Made by a program: the position numbers and the translations under genes. This document shows, piece after piece, positions 6,727-38,943 of a stretch of 38,943 nucleotides of DNA; the first letter of the stretch is position 1, and every line of letters starts with the position of its first letter. The stretch spans positions 1-38,943 of the IMG/VR virus record IMGVR_UViG_3300047185_000016. The stretch is one strand, 5' to 3'. Source of the stretch: a virus. The notes under the pieces were generated by a model. That model worked only from the letters and a program-made list of their open reading frames with translations, did not search any database and had not been told where the DNA came from.

Positions 6727-7125
6727 ATGAAAACGATGATCCCGATATCGCTCCTGCTGGCACTGGCGGTGATTGGTTGCGGCGGCGACGAGCCATTCAC
6801 CTGCGCGCTTGGCAACCTGACCGGCACTTGGCGAGTCCACTACGTCGAGACTGACGGTAACTGCGGCCCGGTTCCGGATGCGACCGTGATGATGGACAGC
6901 GAGTCGGGTTGTACGGTCGAGTCCCAGCAGGTGTCGGCCGACAAATGCCGGAAGGACAGCACGGTCACCTGTCCAACCACGGACGGACTGGGCACCACAA
7001 CGAACGTGACGGTGCTGACGCAAGTCGCTGCCGACAGGATCGAGGGCACCACCACTGTACAATTGGACCATTGGACGCTCGGCTCGTGCCGGAGCACCTA
7101 CGACGTGACCGTCACGCGGCTGTGA
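6727..7125 (+). CDS. Small secreted lipoprotein, moron inserted against the virion operon
   Basis: The 132-residue product begins MKTMIPISLLLALAVIGCGG: basic start, hydrophobic core and a lipobox (VIGC), so it should be exported and lipidated on the Cys at residue 18. The mature part has several Cys residues and a GTWRVHYVETDGNCGP segment typical of small beta-barrel lipoproteins of unknown function. It is the only plus-strand gene within the leftward virion operon, flanked by the nozzle gene (divergent) and a fibre gene (convergent). That placement is the classic pattern of a moron expressed from the prophage, such as a surface-changing or superinfection-exclusion protein; that role is inference. 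The start is the first Met that gives an intact signal peptide; a longer frame upstream runs through the promoter region. Confidence 0.75.
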   Translation: MKTMIPISLLLALAVIGCGGDEPFTCALGNLTGTWRVHYVETDGNCGPVPDATVMMDSESGCTVESQQVSADKCRKDSTVTCPTTDGLGTTTNVTVLTQVAADRIEGTTTVQLDHWTLGSCRSTYDVTVTRL

Positions 7126-7140
7126 GAACGCGGGGGTCAT

Positions 7141-8244
7141 CTAGAGCTCGAAGGCCATGAGTTTGGCGTTGGTGAGCGCTACATAATCAGACGAAGCCTT
7201 TCTGATTTGCACTTTGTACACGTACGTACCAGCAACTACGACATCGACGTGCGTAAAGTCGGCCGCAGCGTGAATGTAATCTTGTGCGTGGGCCGGATTG
7301 ATAGATACGCCAATGTACTGTTCCGAAATGACGACGCTGTCCCGAAGTATCCGTATCCACACATCGGCCAAATACGATGGGGATGCCGACCTGGCTGTGA
7401 TTGCGCCATAATTGGCGCTGTCATTCTGGATTTTCACCAGTACCGGCCGACCCGTAGTGGTGATCGTAACGCTCAAGTTGGTCACATCGACATAGCTTCC
7501 GCTGGTTGTGCTGAAACCCCCACATGAGGCAGATACTTGTTGCCCCAGTGCCGCCCGCTTCGCTTGCGTCACGGCACCATCGGCCAGATTGGTGGTGTCG
7601 ATGACGATGGGGACATCCGGTCCCGCAGCAATCAGCCCCGCTGCCGACAGGGTAAGGAATTTCGTGCTCGCTGGCAACCCAGCCGGAAGAGTGAGCCCGT
7701 AGTCCGCCGCGAGAGTGGCAGGCGACTCAATCGTGATGCCCTTCGCCGAGGTCGCGATCTCCCGGATGGTCAGGGGGCCAGCATCGATCGCCGCCGGCTT
7801 CAGCGTGTCCGACTCAAACGTGAACGTCTTGCTGGCCGTCGTGTAGAACAGGCTCGCGCTCGACGTTCCGTAGTCGCCTCCGATTGCGCCGATGCTGGCC
7901 GCGTCCAGTGCTGGCCCCGACGTAAGGCGGACGATATCCCCGGCTCCGCTGTTCCAGTACAAGTCCCCGCCCGCCTCGTACAGGCATCCGAGGTCGGTTG
8001 ACAACGCGAGCGCCGCCACCTGGTTGTGGAATCGGACTGTCCGCGCGTCCGTGAGATTGTGGTCATTGCACGGGATGTCATCATTGACGTTCAGTCCGGC
8101 CGATGGAACCTTCACGCCCTTGTCCGTCGTGTGGTCGTGCTCGTCCACCGCCTCAAATGCCGTCACGATCTCCGAGGCGTACGTGGGGCCCGGAGTCGCC
8201 GAGGGAACCGGGAGGTTCAGTTTCATGTTGTCTGTGAGTGCCAT
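7141..8244 (-). CDS. Tail fibre-like protein
   Basis: The 367-residue product opens with a segment ending in EHDHTTDKGVKVP, followed by SAGLNVNDDI. A His-Asp-His motif followed by a Lys/Gly pair and a Pro near the N-terminus is a recurrent pattern in phage tail fibres and appendage proteins. The rest is rich in Ala, Thr, Ser and Gly with regular short strands (for example FTFESDTLKPAAIDAGPL), suiting a trimeric beta-structured shaft, and the C-terminal 120 residues look like a compact beta domain. It lies three bases upstream of the next virion gene in the direction of the nozzle gene. The start follows GTGGGGTAGACC, a Shine-Dalgarno of moderate strength. The receptor is unknown, and a head fibre cannot be excluded. 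Confidence 0.65.
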   Translation of the reverse strand: MALTDNMKLNLPVPSATPGPTYASEIVTAFEAVDEHDHTTDKGVKVPSAGLNVNDDIPCNDHNLTDARTVRFHNQVAALALSTDLGCLYEAGGDLYWNSGAGDIVRLTSGPALDAASIGAIGGDYGTSSASLFYTTASKTFTFESDTLKPAAIDAGPLTIREIATSAKGITIESPATLAADYGLTLPAGLPASTKFLTLSAAGLIAAGPDVPIVIDTTNLADGAVTQAKRAALGQQVSASCGGFSTTSGSYVDVTNLSVTITTTGRPVLVKIQNDSANYGAITARSASPSYLADVWIRILRDSVVISEQYIGVSINPAHAQDYIHAAADFTHVDVVVAGTYVYKVQIRKASSDYVALTNAKLMAFEL

Positions 8245-26585: not shown

Positions 26586-27037
26586 TCCACTCGTTTGCCA
26601 GTGAGGTCCGATTCCTCTCTCCGCGATCACTCGCCACGCGGTGGGACTGCGCACGCTCGACGGTCTACGCCGAGCTTGCCAGGATGCGGCAACTCGGGCT
26701 CTACTCCGGGATCAGGGTCGGTGCAGATCAGCGCGTAGCGATATCGGCAATCGAGGCGTACGAGAGATGCCGCGAAGCGGACCAGACACTTACCGTAAAT
26801 GGCGGGTCAATGAAGCGCGCCTCGGGCACATCCGGAATGGGATCTACTGGATTGATCGCACCGTCCACGGTCGTCGATACCGGATCAGCACGGGTTGTCG
26901 AACTCCAGCGGCGGCCATATCGGAGTACCAGAGATTTGAGATCGACCCTGCGCGATATGTACCGCGCGGCAAGGTCGGAACTCTCTGGGATCAAACGGTC
27001 CCGCTCTTCCTGCGGTACTCCGAGGCGGGCCGACTGA
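26582..27037 (+). CDS. Excisionase-like helix-turn-helix protein (long overlap with integrase)
   Basis: The first 65 residues have FLSPRSLATRWDCARSTVYA, a helix-turn-helix of the kind seen in excisionases and MerR-like regulators, followed by a strand pair with GADQRVAISAIEAYE. The rest (residues 65-151) is Ser/Arg-rich, reads like another frame of the integrase, and may not be a folded domain. It lies just before the integrase, the normal place for an excisionase, and overlaps it by about 270 bases. The true C-terminus is uncertain. Confidence 0.55.
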   Translation: MIHSFASEVRFLSPRSLATRWDCARSTVYAELARMRQLGLYSGIRVGADQRVAISAIEAYERCREADQTLTVNGGSMKRASGTSGMGSTGLIAPSTVVDTGSARVVELQRRPYRSTRDLRSTLRDMYRAARSELSGIKRSRSSCGTPRRAD

Positions 27038-27819
27038 ACTCTAGCCGCTGGGTGAACACTCAGGAAGCGTGTCTTGCCAACTTCGGCGCCTTCGGGCCCG
27101 GCTCGGCGCGGGCGTTCTACTCGCTCGACGCATTCACTTCGAGCGACGTACGGTCCTTCGTGGAGGGTCTCACCTCGGGGAACGTGACGGGCAACCAGGT
27201 GGGACCTTCGACGGTCAACCGTCACTTGGCGTCACTAAAGGCGTTCATGCGCTGGGCGAGGGCTGAGGGGCTCACGATGAATCGGGTTGACCAAGAGGTA
27301 CCGATGCTCCGAGAGGACTCCGGAGTGAGGTTCCCGACCGAGGTCCCCGGCCCGCGGTGGCGCGCGATCCTGGCCAAGCTCGATCGCCGATGGCGCTCCG
27401 CCTGTGAGGTCATGCTCGGCGCCGGCCTGCGCTACGGCGAGGTCGCCCGGCTGGTCGCTGAGGACATTCACCCAGGGGGGATCCATGTCCCGAGGGCAAA
27501 AAGCCGGCGAGCAAGGACAGTCCCGTGCTCTGCCCGCACCGTGGCCGCCGCGAAACTGACCGTGAAACTCGGAGGTGTCCCCGATGACGAGGCCAGCCAG
27601 ATCGATCACCGGATCCGGGTCGCTGCTCGAGCAGCCGGGGTGGACCCGTTCGCCGCTCACGAGCTCCGCCATACCTTCGCCACGACCTGCCTGCGGCGCG
27701 GGCTCGACCTCCGGACGCTCCAGGCCTGGCTCGGTCACGCCAGCATCCGGACTACCGAGCGCTACCTGCACTCCCTCTCCGTCGAGCACCCGCCGGCTCG
27801 CCGGCTGGCCCCGCTCTGA
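26767..27819 (+). CDS. int: Tyrosine-type integrase
   Basis: The 350-residue product integrates the phage at attP by the tyrosine recombinase reaction. Seen: an N-terminal beta region with NGIYWIDRTVHGRRYRISTG, a core-binding helix region, and the catalytic set Arg (GAGLRYGEVARL), Lys (PRAKSRRA), His-x-x-Arg (HELRHTF), His (LGHAS) and Tyr (TTERYLHSL). All six conserved residues are present. The start at MPRSGPDTYR (26767) follows the helix-turn-helix of the upstream gene; an earlier Met (26641) would make a non-homologous leader. attP follows 178 bases after the stop. Confidence 0.9.
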   Translation: MPRSGPDTYRKWRVNEARLGHIRNGIYWIDRTVHGRRYRISTGCRTPAAAISEYQRFEIDPARYVPRGKVGTLWDQTVPLFLRYSEAGRLNSSRWVNTQEACLANFGAFGPGSARAFYSLDAFTSSDVRSFVEGLTSGNVTGNQVGPSTVNRHLASLKAFMRWARAEGLTMNRVDQEVPMLREDSGVRFPTEVPGPRWRAILAKLDRRWRSACEVMLGAGLRYGEVARLVAEDIHPGGIHVPRAKSRRARTVPCSARTVAAAKLTVKLGGVPDDEASQIDHRIRVAARAAGVDPFAAHELRHTFATTCLRRGLDLRTLQAWLGHASIRTTERYLHSLSVEHPPARRLAPL

Positions 27820-27908
27820 GAGTGCGGATATGGCGTGCCACGGCGGATGGTATCCCGCGCCAGGAAGGCCTATACGACGCAGCCAGCGAGCCGTGGTGAG
27901 GCGATCGG

Positions 27909-27937
27909 GTGCCCGGGAGGCCTGGAGTACCGGGCAC
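27909..27937. repeat. Inverted repeat near attP
   Basis: GTGCCCGG and CCGGGCAC are separated by 13 bases. They lie between the integrase stop and the tRNA-like core, where arm sites for integrase or bends are usual. Confidence 0.5.
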
Positions 27938-27957
27938 TCATTTGTCACGCCCTTGGG

Positions 27958-27991
27958 CACTGGAGAACCCAGTTGCCCGAATTCTCCAGTG
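27958..27991. repeat. 10-base inverted repeat near attP
   Basis: CACTGGAGAA and TTCTCCAGTG, 14 bases apart, form a strong stem just before the tRNA-like core. It could be an integrase arm site or a two-way terminator separating the integrase from genes beyond attP. Confidence 0.55.
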
Positions 27992-27997
27992 ATTTCA

Positions 27998-28036
27998 GCT
28001 CCCCAGGGAGGACTCGAACCTTCGACCCGGTGATTA
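27998..28036 (-). other. attP: attP core: 3' half of a tRNA gene (Met or Ile type)
   Basis: On the minus strand this segment reads as the end of an anticodon loop (ATAA), an anticodon-stem half (TCACC), a variable loop (GGGTC), a T arm with GGTTCGAGTCCTCC and an acceptor-like end. A T-arm pair is mismatched, and no 5' half exists, so it is not a complete tRNA gene. The ATAA after an undetermined base implies an anticodon ending in AT (Met CAT or Ile GAT). Phage attP sites often carry such a tRNA 3' end so that integration restores the host gene. It stands 178 bases after the integrase stop. Confidence 0.7.
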
Positions 28037-28470
28037 TTCTTCAGGCTCTCCGCGAGAAACGTCTGGCCGACGGGGGTCTGGGGAAGAAGGACCAACGTTT
28101 GATTCACCGTATCCGCGACCTTGGAACGGACTTTCAGAATGTCGGCGTGAAGATAGTCGTTACAGGCCTCGGTGAAGGGGCTCGAGAGCTCGCCCTTGGG
28201 ATCGAACTTGAGGCCTGCCGTGTTGGAGCCCGACATCGGCTGGACCATCCAGTACGCGTTGCCGAAACGTCGCTGCGGAACTCCGATCCAGTTGACCAGC
28301 TCCTTTGACCGAAAGTGGGCGATTGCCCAACGGCGATGCGTGCGAAGAACGCCACTCTTCTTCTCGACCTTGCCGTTCACCTTTTCGTCCGGATAGATCT
28401 CCGGTAAAAGCTTCTCTTTGACCAACTCGCGCAGACTCGAGTCTTTAACAGACTCCCGAAAATTGACCAA
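28037..28470 (-). CDS. Coding-like frame entering attP; possible moron or host-derived gene
   Basis: The minus-strand frame from a TTG at 28470 reads like a natural protein for about 145 codons: KLLPEIYPDEKVNGKVEKKS, HRRWAIAHFRSKELVNWIGV, and ADTVNQTLVLLPQTPVG. The frame then stays open through the tRNA-like core and into the antisense of the integrase, which is probably accidental. So in the phage form no clear end exists; after integration the C-terminus would come from the host side. It may be a gene caught from a host or a prophage-end gene. No family is recognised and the start (no Shine-Dalgarno) is uncertain. Confidence 0.4.
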
Positions 28471-28592
28471 GGTAAATAAAATCGCGCAGTTACGGCCCGA
28501 ATTCGTCCGCCACTGTCCGGATCCGGCCGCTCAGCTGTCACGCCTGCGTCACCCGAACCCCTTCCCAGGCCAGAAAAAAGAGGCGACAGTGT

Positions 28593-28621
28593 TTGACACG
28601 TGTCTATAGATGACATATATT
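28593..28621 (+). promoter_or_regulatory. Strong rightward promoter with palindrome in spacer
   Basis: TTGACA, 17-base spacer, TATATT: a consensus -35, ideal spacing and a five-of-six -10 box. The bases GACACGTGTC (28595-28604) are a perfect palindrome overlapping the -35 box and spacer, a possible operator. The box ends six bases before an ATG at 28628. Confidence 0.85.
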
Positions 28622-28627
28622 AAGATC

Positions 28628-28975
28628 ATGATGACGCGCGAAAAGACGAATTGTCAGGAGTGCGGCGGACGGAGTGAGCACGAGTGCTGGTGCTCGTTAA
28701 ATCGGGATCCTGACCCAACTGGGAAGAAGGCGGTCGAGGAGATCGAGCGTCAGGAAGCCGCCCGGCGCTCCGACATCGCGCGGGCGGGTGGCTGCGCTTG
28801 CGGCGTGGCCGCCGGCACGAAGATCGTCGATCACCACTACGGCTGTGTCGCCGCCTCGCGTGCGTACGACGCGGGACGCGCGGTGCTCAATGATCCCCGC
28901 GCCTCGATCGGAGCAATCGAGTGGAACCCCGCGGCTCGCGCGGCGGCTTACGCTGCACTGACAAAGGAGGACTGA
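28628..28975 (+). CDS. Cys-rich protein from a leaderless-type start
   Basis: The 115-residue product has a Cys/His-rich start (CQECGGRSEHECWCSLNRDP) and a middle CACGVAAGTKIVDHHYGC, enough ligands for two metals, then a helical Ala/Arg-rich end. The start lies at the expected transcription start of the strong promoter upstream, so the mRNA likely lacks a leader. It is the first gene on the rightward side of attP, often the site of lysogenic genes. Function unknown. Confidence 0.55.
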   Translation: MMTREKTNCQECGGRSEHECWCSLNRDPDPTGKKAVEEIERQEAARRSDIARAGGCACGVAAGTKIVDHHYGCVAASRAYDAGRAVLNDPRASIGAIEWNPAARAAAYAALTKED

Positions 28976-29591: not shown

Positions 29592-29987
29592 ATGGAACAG
29601 ACCAAGATCAAGATCAGCGTATCGCGAAAGTCGGCCATCGCGGCTGGGCGGACCAGCTATGGCGATCAGGTGGTCACATTGAGTGACGCGGACGTGGCAG
29701 CACTTACGCCCGAGGAGCGGGAGGAACTCCTGCGTCTCGGGACCGGCTATGAGCGGGACGGCGAGAAAGGGGTCCTGCTCACCGAGACCATCACCGACAG
29801 CGACGGCCGCACGGCACACCGGGGTGGTGCTGACGATCACGGCGCCGAAGATGGCGACCCGGTACCGCTTCTATTACTCGGAGTAGCACCCCCGGGCGAT
29901 CTCCGGATCGCCCGCCCACGTGGCTCCCCGAAGGAACTCGGAGCGCCACGCGAGCAGACGGACCCGAAAAGGAGACAATATGGTTGA
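29592..29987 (+). CDS. Small protein with uncertain reading frame at its end
   Basis: The first 75 codons look natural: MEQTKIKISVSRKSAIAAGR, QVVTLSDADVAALTPEEREE, KGVLLTETITDSDG. After about 29810 this frame gives unlikely residues, while the +1 frame reads VVLTITAPKMATRYRFYYSE and stops at 29886. Either the gene is longer in one frame than drawn, a second short frame exists, or a frameshift joins the two. AAGGAG stands 12 bases upstream. Role unknown. Confidence 0.45.
   Translation: MEQTKIKISVSRKSAIAAGRTSYGDQVVTLSDADVAALTPEEREELLRLGTGYERDGEKGVLLTETITDSDGRTAHRGGADDHGAEDGDPVPLLLLGVAPPGDLRIARPRGSPKELGAPREQTDPKRRQYG
29893..29914 (+). other. Hairpin in gap before HNH gene
   Basis: CGGGCGATC and GATCGCCCG form a perfect nine-base stem around TCCG. 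It lies just after the end of the +1 frame of the previous gene and 66 bases before the HNH start. Confidence 0.55.
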
Positions 29988-30498
29988 GATCCATTTGACT
30001 CGTGGATACACCGCGTTCGTCGATGACGCGGACGCCGATCTCGCAAACTTGAAATGGTTCGCGCAGCCGCACGGACGGACGGCGTACGGGTTGCGTCACA
30101 TTCCGCGATCTGGTGGCGGCAGGGCGATCGAGCGTCTCCACCGTGCCGTCTGGCGCCGTGCGCATCCGGGTAAGCCGATACCGGCTCAGCTCGACCATGT
30201 CGACGGGAACGGACTGAACTGCACGCGAACGAATCTCCGCGCAGCCAGCAGGGAGGAAAACGGCCGGAACCAGAGACTTATAGTGACGAACAGATCCGGC
30301 TTTAAGGGCGTTTCCTGGCATCAAGACCGCTCGAAATGGCACGCGCGGATCAAGTTCGCTGGCAAACGCAAACATATAGGTCTGTTCGTCAATAAATACG
30401 ACGCGGCACGCGCGTACGACGCGGCGGCTCGCGAGGTGTTCGGCGCCTTCGCGCGTCTGAACTTTCCGATGTCCGGGGAGAATAGCGCTGCATTATGA
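29980..30498 (+). CDS. HNH/AP2-type homing endonuclease (copy 1)
   Basis: The 172-residue product is the paralogue of the protein at 36109. Seen: an HNH-like region with ERLHRAVWRRAHPG, LDHVDGNGLNCTRTNLRAAS (His-Asp-His... Asn) and an AP2-type DNA-binding end with GFKGVSWHQDRSKWHARIKF and AARAYDAAAREVFGAFARLN. Such enzymes nick DNA and spread themselves. A strong Shine-Dalgarno (AAAAGGAG) precedes the ATG at 29980; the longer frame upstream is unlikely. Confidence 0.8.
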   Translation: MVEIHLTRGYTAFVDDADADLANLKWFAQPHGRTAYGLRHIPRSGGGRAIERLHRAVWRRAHPGKPIPAQLDHVDGNGLNCTRTNLRAASREENGRNQRLIVTNRSGFKGVSWHQDRSKWHARIKFAGKRKHIGLFVNKYDAARAYDAAAREVFGAFARLNFPMSGENSAAL

Positions 30499-36654: not shown

Positions 36655-38943
36655 CTATGACATCCGCCGTTCGGCGGCAGTGAGTGATCGATCTCCCAAA
36701 CTGAGCTTGATCGCGCGTGGCCTCGGGTTGACCTCCGACTGCGGCTGCGCCTGGTACGCCTTCTGAACGCTCTGCATGAGCCGGCGATCAACATCGGTGC
36801 CTCCCAGCAAGAGTACGAGCGAGCGTCGAGCCGAGTAGGAAAGTTTCGGATTCGGTCCCAGACTGGCCACCCGATCGATCAGCGATTGCTGGATCTTCTG
36901 GTAGAGCTCGGGATGGACGACCTTCACGGCCTGTACTGCCTTGGCGTTGAGCCTGCCCCGCTTCGCGTCGGAGAGAATCGTCATCGGCTTCGACACGGCC
37001 CGCCACTGCGCCGCGAAGTCCACGCGCTCTTGGACCGTCGTCTTGCGCTTCGGACCGAACGGATTGATGCCTTGTGGCCGCGCCTGCTGGGAGAGGTACT
37101 GCACCGCCCGGCTCATGGTGCCCTGCATAGCTGAAGAGGTCATCGGAGCATCGGATTGCATGTCCTGGGTCGCGCGTGCCGCCTGCGCAATCATGCCCTC
37201 GGGATTGCTCGCGAGTGCTGTGATGCGCTCGACGCGCCGCTCGTGCTGGCGCTCGGATGGCACCTTCCAAGTGCTCGACGCGGCGCCGCGGACCATGAGC
37301 CGTCGCGCGCTCTCGGCGGTACCCTGCACGGCCCGCGTCCCCTGGAGGCGGACGAGCGCCCTCGCCGCGCCGTCGATCCGGGCCGTGACCTTCTTCCCCG
37401 CCTTCTCCAGCACGACTAGGGAATGGACCGCCGTGGGAACCTCTACCCTTGCCCCGAAGGCCATCTTGCCGATCGCGAGCGCCGCCTTGCCCTCCTCGGT
37501 CGAGGCAATGGCCTTCAGGCCCGCCAATCCAGCGGCAATCGGGGCTACACCTGGAATGCCGAGCCGGCTGGCTCCATACGCGATCATCCCGAGCCCGGTG
37601 ATGTCTCGGCCGAGTCCGCCCGTGGGCGTAGCGACCGTCACCTCGCCCGCCTGACTGACGGGAGCTGCGCCGTACGACCCGTAGATCATCCGCTTGTCGG
37701 TGCCCTGCCGGAGCTGCGTGATCGCCGTGACATCTTCCGCCTGCTTGGTCAGCTCCTCATGCTTGGCGAGGAGGTCCAGAAAGTCGCTCTTGTTGACCGC
37801 TTTGACTGTTAGGTCATGTTGTGAATCGTCAATCGCATTGACCAGATTGCGCGATGCGTCGCGGAAGTCTTGGAGTATCTCGCTCCTGATCGCGCCCCGC
37901 TTGTCGTTTGTCTGGTTTAGGAAGGTGTTGACCTTCGTGACGTTCGGTTGAAGCTCCACTCCGCCCCTCACCTCGACGCGCTCAAGCAGACCATGCTTGC
38001 CCTTCATCCGCTTCAGCACGGAGGCATAGTCGGCCTGCGCCTGATCGAGTGCGGATTGCCGAGCGGCCTGCTGGCCCCACACTTGCGGATCTCGAAGGTA
38101 CTCGTTCAGATCGCGACGTAGTCCTCTCAGTTCCTTGACCGAGTTACGCTCGGTAAACGTGAGATCATCGAGTTTCTTGTAGGGAATCATGTCGTCAATC
38201 TGCTGACGAGCGCCCCGAAGCCGCTGGTACAAATCGGCCGCACCAGTGGGCTTAGTGAACGGTACGTGCGTCATGTCCCGCGCAATGCCTTCTTGCAGAA
38301 GCTCGAGTTGTCGGGCGTGCCCCTGACTGAACATGTCGACTTCGGATCGCATCTTAGCGACCGAGTCCCCGATCTTTTGTTGCCACCCCTGAAGGCCGGC
38401 CTGTTGCTCTACTGTCTGTGCCCCGGGCAAGAGCTTCTCGATCTCGACGGGCCGGACAGACCGATTGAACTCCTTGTTGACCGCCTCGATTGTCTTAATC
38501 TGCGTTCCTAGGTTGTCCGCGAAGTCGGAGAAGATCTTGTTCCGGAGCTCGGGATCTCGGATCACCTTGTCCCAGTTAGTGAGCAGTCGATCCGCAGTCT
38601 CGACACTTCCGACGCTTTGCAGCTTCGCACTTATCCCAGGGTCAACAGCCTCCATCTCGGCAAGCCGTGCCCGGTTTGCCAACATCCAATCGGTCATCTC
38701 CCCGGGGGCCTGCTCCCGAATGACTGCCTCGGCTTTGCCGGCGATCTTGCCCGCGCCCCACTCCAACCCCTGCCGCGCCTTGGTCAGGGCGACCTTCAGG
38801 CCCTGACCGCCAGCCGAGAGGCCGAATCCCGCTCCGAATCCCAGCGCTGCGCCAAGCCCCACGTTCTGCATGAGGGCCGAGGCCGAAAAGCCGGGATCTC
38901 CCAGGGCCTCCTCATGGATGGATTGCCCGAGCCCGTAGAGCGC
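36655..38943 (-). CDS. Internal virion (ejection-type) protein, C-terminal part, cut by window end
   Basis: The frame is open to the window edge: it begins ALYGLGQSIHEEALGDPGFS in register with base 38943 and gives 762 residues before TAG at 36655. Seen: a Gly-rich membrane-like segment GLGAALGFGAGFGLSAGG near its start, long helical regions (RLLTNWDKVIRDPELRNKIF), and a C-terminal FAAQWRAVSKPMTILSDAKR region typical of podoviral internal core proteins. Its N-terminal part is the frame at 1-500. Proteins of this family usually have a short stretch before ALYG that is not seen at either edge, which fits bases missing at the joint. Confidence 0.75.
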   Translation of the reverse strand, partial: ALYGLGQSIHEEALGDPGFSASALMQNVGLGAALGFGAGFGLSAGGQGLKVALTKARQGLEWGAGKIAGKAEAVIREQAPGEMTDWMLANRARLAEMEAVDPGISAKLQSVGSVETADRLLTNWDKVIRDPELRNKIFSDFADNLGTQIKTIEAVNKEFNRSVRPVEIEKLLPGAQTVEQQAGLQGWQQKIGDSVAKMRSEVDMFSQGHARQLELLQEGIARDMTHVPFTKPTGAADLYQRLRGARQQIDDMIPYKKLDDLTFTERNSVKELRGLRRDLNEYLRDPQVWGQQAARQSALDQAQADYASVLKRMKGKHGLLERVEVRGGVELQPNVTKVNTFLNQTNDKRGAIRSEILQDFRDASRNLVNAIDDSQHDLTVKAVNKSDFLDLLAKHEELTKQAEDVTAITQLRQGTDKRMIYGSYGAAPVSQAGEVTVATPTGGLGRDITGLGMIAYGASRLGIPGVAPIAAGLAGLKAIASTEEGKAALAIGKMAFGARVEVPTAVHSLVVLEKAGKKVTARIDGAARALVRLQGTRAVQGTAESARRLMVRGAASSTWKVPSERQHERRVERITALASNPEGMIAQAARATQDMQSDAPMTSSAMQGTMSRAVQYLSQQARPQGINPFGPKRKTTVQERVDFAAQWRAVSKPMTILSDAKRGRLNAKAVQAVKVVHPELYQKIQQSLIDRVASLGPNPKLSYSARRSLVLLLGGTDVDRRLMQSVQKAYQAQPQSEVNPRPRAIKLSLGDRSLTAAERRMS

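Follow-up and report, generated by a model that had tools for sequence, protein, structure and literature searches.

The window analyzed here is the whole 38,943-base stretch of the virus record IMGVR_UViG_3300047185_000016, which lacks terminal repeats. Its minus strand codes for a terminase large subunit, a portal, a head protein, and internal-virion-type proteins, and the late-gene order suggests a circularly permuted genome. A minus-strand ORF overruns each end of the record (positions 1–500 and 36655–38943); as recorded, these open ends cannot be connected in a common frame, so a few bases may be missing or repeated there. In the attachment region, a plus-strand tyrosine integrase gene (PF00589, phrog_1) lies next to attP and is followed on the minus strand by the 3′ half of a tRNA, into which a long minus-strand reading frame runs. 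The features of this region are collected in Table 1.

Table 1. Features of the attachment region, in window coordinates.
Feature	Position	Strand	Remarks
Tyrosine integrase	26641..27819	+	392 aa, start codon uncertain; PF00589, E 4.3e-23; phrog_1 integrase, E 4e-39
attP arm repeat copy 1 (putative arm-type site)	27930..27951	+	22-nt direct repeat, 82% identical to 28523–28544
3′ half of tRNA-Asn-like sequence (attP core, right part)	27998..28036	-	Starts with the TAA that ends the anticodon loop; read directly; aligns with the uninterrupted core of L002
Insert	28037..28444	-	408 bp (411 extra with the 3-bp repeat); coding frame 28446–28036, 137 codons; blastn and codon statistics
Left part of split core, TCTGTTAA	28445..28452	-	Keeps the entire anticodon loop CTGTTAA
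attP left arm	28453..28563	-	Homologous to L002; holds arm repeat copy 2 at 28523–28544

A preliminary description of this stretch had named a tRNA-like core, and this core is real: read on the minus strand, 28036–27998 (TAATCACCGGGTCGAAGGTTCGAGTCCTCCCTGGGGAGC) is a tRNA 3′ half, while ARAGORN detected no whole tRNA. The loop CTGTTAA contains the anticodon GTT, hence tRNA-Asn, an assignment that is our own reading and is named by no tool. According to the sections cited, recombination at tRNA attP sites takes place in either the anticodon loop or the T loop, or else close to the 3′ end (PMC4383910, PMC8371274), and the anticodon loop is the crossover in about half of the catalogued islands (2083 ‘A’ versus 1836 ‘J’ sites in Islander; PMC4383910). 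The window resembles the ‘A’ sites of that catalogue as the cited part presents them, with a tRNA 3′ half starting from the anticodon loop, an adjacent integrase gene, and arm repeats, but differs in that its core is split (PMC4383910). Indeed, one phage arm lies on one side of the split, and the tRNA 3′ half lies with the other arm on the opposite side. Searches for an exact 28-base core pattern in genome_contigs, where a matching attB was sought, and for an exact 38-base core pattern in viral contigs returned no locus. By eye, the T stem of the window’s tRNA half contains an A-C mismatch (GAAGG/CCTCC), whereas that of the relative introduced below is fully paired (GCATG/CATGC); with this mismatch, the window’s half may not restore a working tRNA.

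An integrase scan of viral contigs revealed a single relative, IMGVR_UViG_3300038549_000056 (L002, L003, and L005), whose integrase is 83% identical. An alignment-based integrase scan recovered the same record and nothing else, so that two members of this integrase type are known, and a search of viral contigs with patterns of the att arms also gave this record as the sole find. Phage and plasmid records contained no close integrases, and the distant ones were all under 60% identity. By blastn, window positions 26603–28036 correspond to L003 9069–7638 and positions 28445–28563 to L003 7640–7520, with 80–81% identity (81% over 121 aligned columns for the latter segment) and 3 bp common to both. 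The alignment thus stops at 28036 and restarts at 28445; the window has an excess of 411 bases at this point, and a 3-bp repeat, TAA when read on the minus strand, borders it. The relative’s attP core is uninterrupted on the minus strand: GGAGT is followed by the loop CTGTTAA and by a contiguous, normal tRNA 3′ half ending in TGGGGAGC. In the window, the same loop is followed by 408 different bases, after which the core restarts with a second copy of TAA, so the break point falls within the anticodon loop. The arm repeats have 17-nt versions at matching places in the relative (L002 6842–6858 and 7035–7051); their start-to-start spacing is 593 in the window versus 193 in L002, and they flank the insert in the former and the intact core in the latter. 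By this comparison, attP is complete apart from the insert, which lies in its crossover region. The two genomes share the int-att module and are otherwise different phages. Right of attP, at about 7070–7795 (+), L002 seems, by eye, to code for a phospholipase-D-like protein with DNDGDG-type repeats at its end, and the window differs there.

Starting with a TTG at 28470, the minus-strand frame stays open for 411 codons, crossing the tRNA-like core and reaching 27235; it does enter the core without a stop, as had been described. Openness by itself is weak evidence of coding. For the 411-base stretch, the same frame stayed open in 4.8% of 2,000 dinucleotide shuffles, and at least one of the six frames was open in 19% of them. 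Codon use, on the other hand, is strong evidence. With codon log-odds trained on 7,257 codons from 15 ORFs of the window, the segment 28446–28036 has a mean of 0.189 per codon, a value reached in none of 2,000 shuffles (maximum 0.050, taking the best of six frames each) and in none of 225 wrong-frame readings of 45 windows cut from the window’s own genes (maximum 0.070). The 45 true gene windows average 0.214 per codon, and 14 of them score no higher than the insert. The GC contents by codon position are 0.58/0.39/0.75 in the insert versus 0.63/0.48/0.76 in the phage genes. In a sliding codon profile, the signal increases near 28440 and drops near 28036. The coding-like part is therefore exactly 28446–28036 rather than the whole of 28470–27998 suggested by the preliminary description: neither the 24 bases 28470–28447 nor the stretch just past 28036 is gene-like, and both flanks are att DNA of the phage that merely happens to be read in this frame. 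The frame of the insert has no stop of its own, and because the 411 excess bases are a multiple of three, it stays open across both junctions. A clear ribosome site is seen neither at the TTG at 28470 nor at six further in-frame start codons.

The 137-codon frame was compared with several collections. The best matches in Pfam (MukB, E 0.22), PHROGs (E 0.15), and the PDB sequences (E 0.11) were at chance level, and NCBIfam and PADLOC gave no match. A tblastn search of phage records found no relative of the insert, with one chance-level match (E 0.2), and plasmid records likewise contained none. Pattern searches, which detect close relatives only, did not recover a source in genome_contigs (exact 8-residue patterns) or any relative in viral_contigs (exact short and shorter degenerate patterns). 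Neither the rest of the window nor the portion of the relative’s record that was compared contained a further copy of the insert above chance. AlphaFold2, run on the 137 residues alone as a single sequence, gave a mean pLDDT of 40, which is unusable. The absence of phage relatives suggests that the insert is not of phage nature, and its gene-like codon use without start or stop suggests an internal piece of a protein gene, probably a bacterial one.

Two kinds of mobile sequence were considered and rejected. For a group I or other tRNA anticodon-loop intron, Rfam returned two chance matches on the window’s att region, to unrelated non-intron families with E values up to 10, and only chance matches on the att region of L002. 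For a transposon or MITE, there is a 3-bp border repeat, yet no terminal inverted repeats are seen by eye. A broader proposal, that repair or transposition independent of Int placed the fragment with a 3-bp target duplication, accounts for the exact repeat at the borders; still, besides the missing inverted repeats, the insert is coding throughout and would have landed in the crossover loop by coincidence, and we consider this proposal highly improbable.

The preliminary description had proposed that the frame belongs to a phage protein gene spanning attP, whose C-terminus is replaced on integration, as in mycobacteriophage BPs. The open frame through the core and the preserved phase of the 411 extra bases would indeed allow a fused product. 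However, the relative has the same integrase type and the same attP arms but not the gene. In its record, the supposed start is CTG instead of TTG, the same frame (LVDFLESV-NHRVACSS and onward) reaches a stop after 43 codons, and the insert protein was not found in a search of the whole record (0/1, run without a positive control). One homologous phage thus differs in sequence at this place and does not conserve the protein, which, together with the lack of a ribosome site, speaks against the proposal. Integration-dependent immunity in BPs is similar in that a reading frame crosses attP beside the integrase gene. As the cited sections describe it, the BPs gene is a repressor that is co-directional with int and functionally switched, whereas the window’s frame converges on int and shows neither conservation, nor a start signal, nor a family (PMC4557955). 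A conserved repressor gene containing attP was accordingly not recognized, as the frame matches no repressor-like family and is absent from the relative. We regard an integration-dependent phage gene as very improbable, and a gene-like open frame entering attP need not be a phage gene.

We favor, at about even chances, the reading that the frame is not a phage gene running into attP but an internal piece of an outside gene, most likely of the bacterial host, inserted into the anticodon loop of tRNA-Asn at the crossover point of the integrase. The loop accounts for about 7 of some 1,560 aligned columns, so by our arithmetic a random insertion would land there in approximately 0.5% of cases, and this location points to integrase recombination. 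The non-phage half-sites at the borders match the phage core half-sites at best at 5 of 8 (P 0.09) and 3 of 8 positions (P 0.62), neither of which is significant. Since this likeness is no better than chance, the involvement of Int is argued from the location only; on that ground we infer that the phage Int made both junctions.

The alternative offered in the preliminary description, a host fragment carried out by imprecise excision, fares better than the phage-gene proposal and agrees with the favored reading as to origin, although the fragment splits attP within the anticodon-loop crossover instead of merely abutting it. The left CTGTTAA is not followed by a bacterial tRNA 3′ half, which makes ordinary mis-excision from tRNA-Asn less likely; simple mis-excision is thus insufficient, and a secondary site within a gene or another Int-mediated event is needed. 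In such a course of events, the phage or an ancestor would have entered a secondary site within a host gene, and integration would have yielded the left junction, consisting of the phage left arm, CTGTTAA, and host gene. On excision, the other prophage end would have been paired not with the proper junction but with a poor pseudo-site about 0.4 kb along the same gene, giving the right junction, in which host gene is joined to TAATCACC and the integrase side. The resulting phage would carry 0.4 kb of host gene enclosed by two hybrid junctions. The insert is, then, most likely a scar of faulty integration or excision, akin to a specialized-transducing scar. Several points speak against this reading. 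Of the 7-nt overlap, only TAA is common to both junctions, and the uninterrupted state taken as ancestral is backed by one relative only. A split attP entering the normal site via its left half would also wreck tRNA-Asn.

Specialized-transducing phages arise by aberrant prophage excision, as with the gal and bio phages of lambda, and the lambda att2 phages carry host DNA enclosed by both prophage junctions. The window is similar in that putatively host-derived DNA lies beside or between two hybrid att junctions in a phage genome; unlike those phages, it retains both attP arms, carries a tiny piece of 0.4 kb, and lacks the bacterial halves of a normal tRNA attB. Phages can also enter genes: for lambda, the section cited reports the use of 304 secondary sites, 77.6% of them in genes or coding regions (PMC5605937). 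Excision from secondary sites can also alter attP, as described for Sa3int phages in the cited passages, which refer to lambda and P2 as well (PMC8649754). These phages from alternative attB sites and, on the favored reading, the window have in common an attP changed after a cycle at a non-standard site with a tyrosine recombinase, but the changes described there are nucleotide substitutions in the core, whereas the window has gained a 411-base piece (PMC8649754). Among titles and the openings of abstracts, we found no published description of a coding insert in an attP crossover, which is no proof of its absence from print.

If the junctions represent real molecules, the record documents a stage that as a rule is known by inference, namely a temperate phage leaving with a piece of a host gene exactly between its att arms, and it shows a route by which tRNA-targeting phages could gain gene pieces or switch attachment site. 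A chimeric record would void the finding. The 0.4-kb piece might be absent from the real phage if the assembly joined reads from the integrated and free forms, or if amplification chimeras were joined. The case stands as a single virus record without terminal repeats, and the left junction contains a 6-bp fold-back, GAGTCT-GTTAA-AGACTC, of a kind that can accompany fold-back chimeras. The window has 18 such arms separated by a 5-nt gap versus about 9.5 expected, so the one at the left junction may be due to chance. Moreover, there is no reason for assembly noise to favor the recombination loop, where both junctions fall, and the mere 3 bases that they share would not suffice for an assembler to connect unrelated reads. 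A chimera is therefore unlikely, though it deserves to be kept in mind.

Two further proposals were considered. The gene might be ancestral and have been lost from the relative by site-specific deletion or by a proper round of integration and excision. With two members known, the order of events is not polarized by an outgroup; nevertheless, the uninterrupted core of the relative, a normal tRNA 3′ half whose T stem is paired by eye, is what a functional ancestor would be expected to have, and the insert has neither start nor stop, which makes such a loss quite improbable. Alternatively, Int might have placed a small circle or cassette with a gene piece into attP, in the manner of integron integrases. 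The crossover bounds the insert on both sides and the phage arms are intact, as this would predict. In contrast to an integron cassette, the insert ORF is incomplete, lacking start and stop; there is one example, the borders share 3 bases, and no cassette-type site was recognized in an analysis run without a dedicated attC tool. We hold this kind of capture to be improbable. The more general notion, to which we attach a still smaller probability, is that the attP of this integrase serves as an insertion port, where small circles or fragments of coding sequence are taken up between the phage arms, at the crossover in the anticodon loop, so that gene pieces could be carried, exchanged, and expressed as fusions that differ between the free and integrated states.

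Additional features were observed near the attachment region. The window encodes at 29920–30498 (+) an HNH endonuclease with an AP2-like domain, of the homing-endonuclease type. Immediately right of attP and ahead of the ORF at 28610–28975, a near-consensus sigma-70-type promoter (TTGACA-17-TATATT; 28593–28621, +) overlaps the palindrome GACACGTGTC and looks like an early promoter with an operator.
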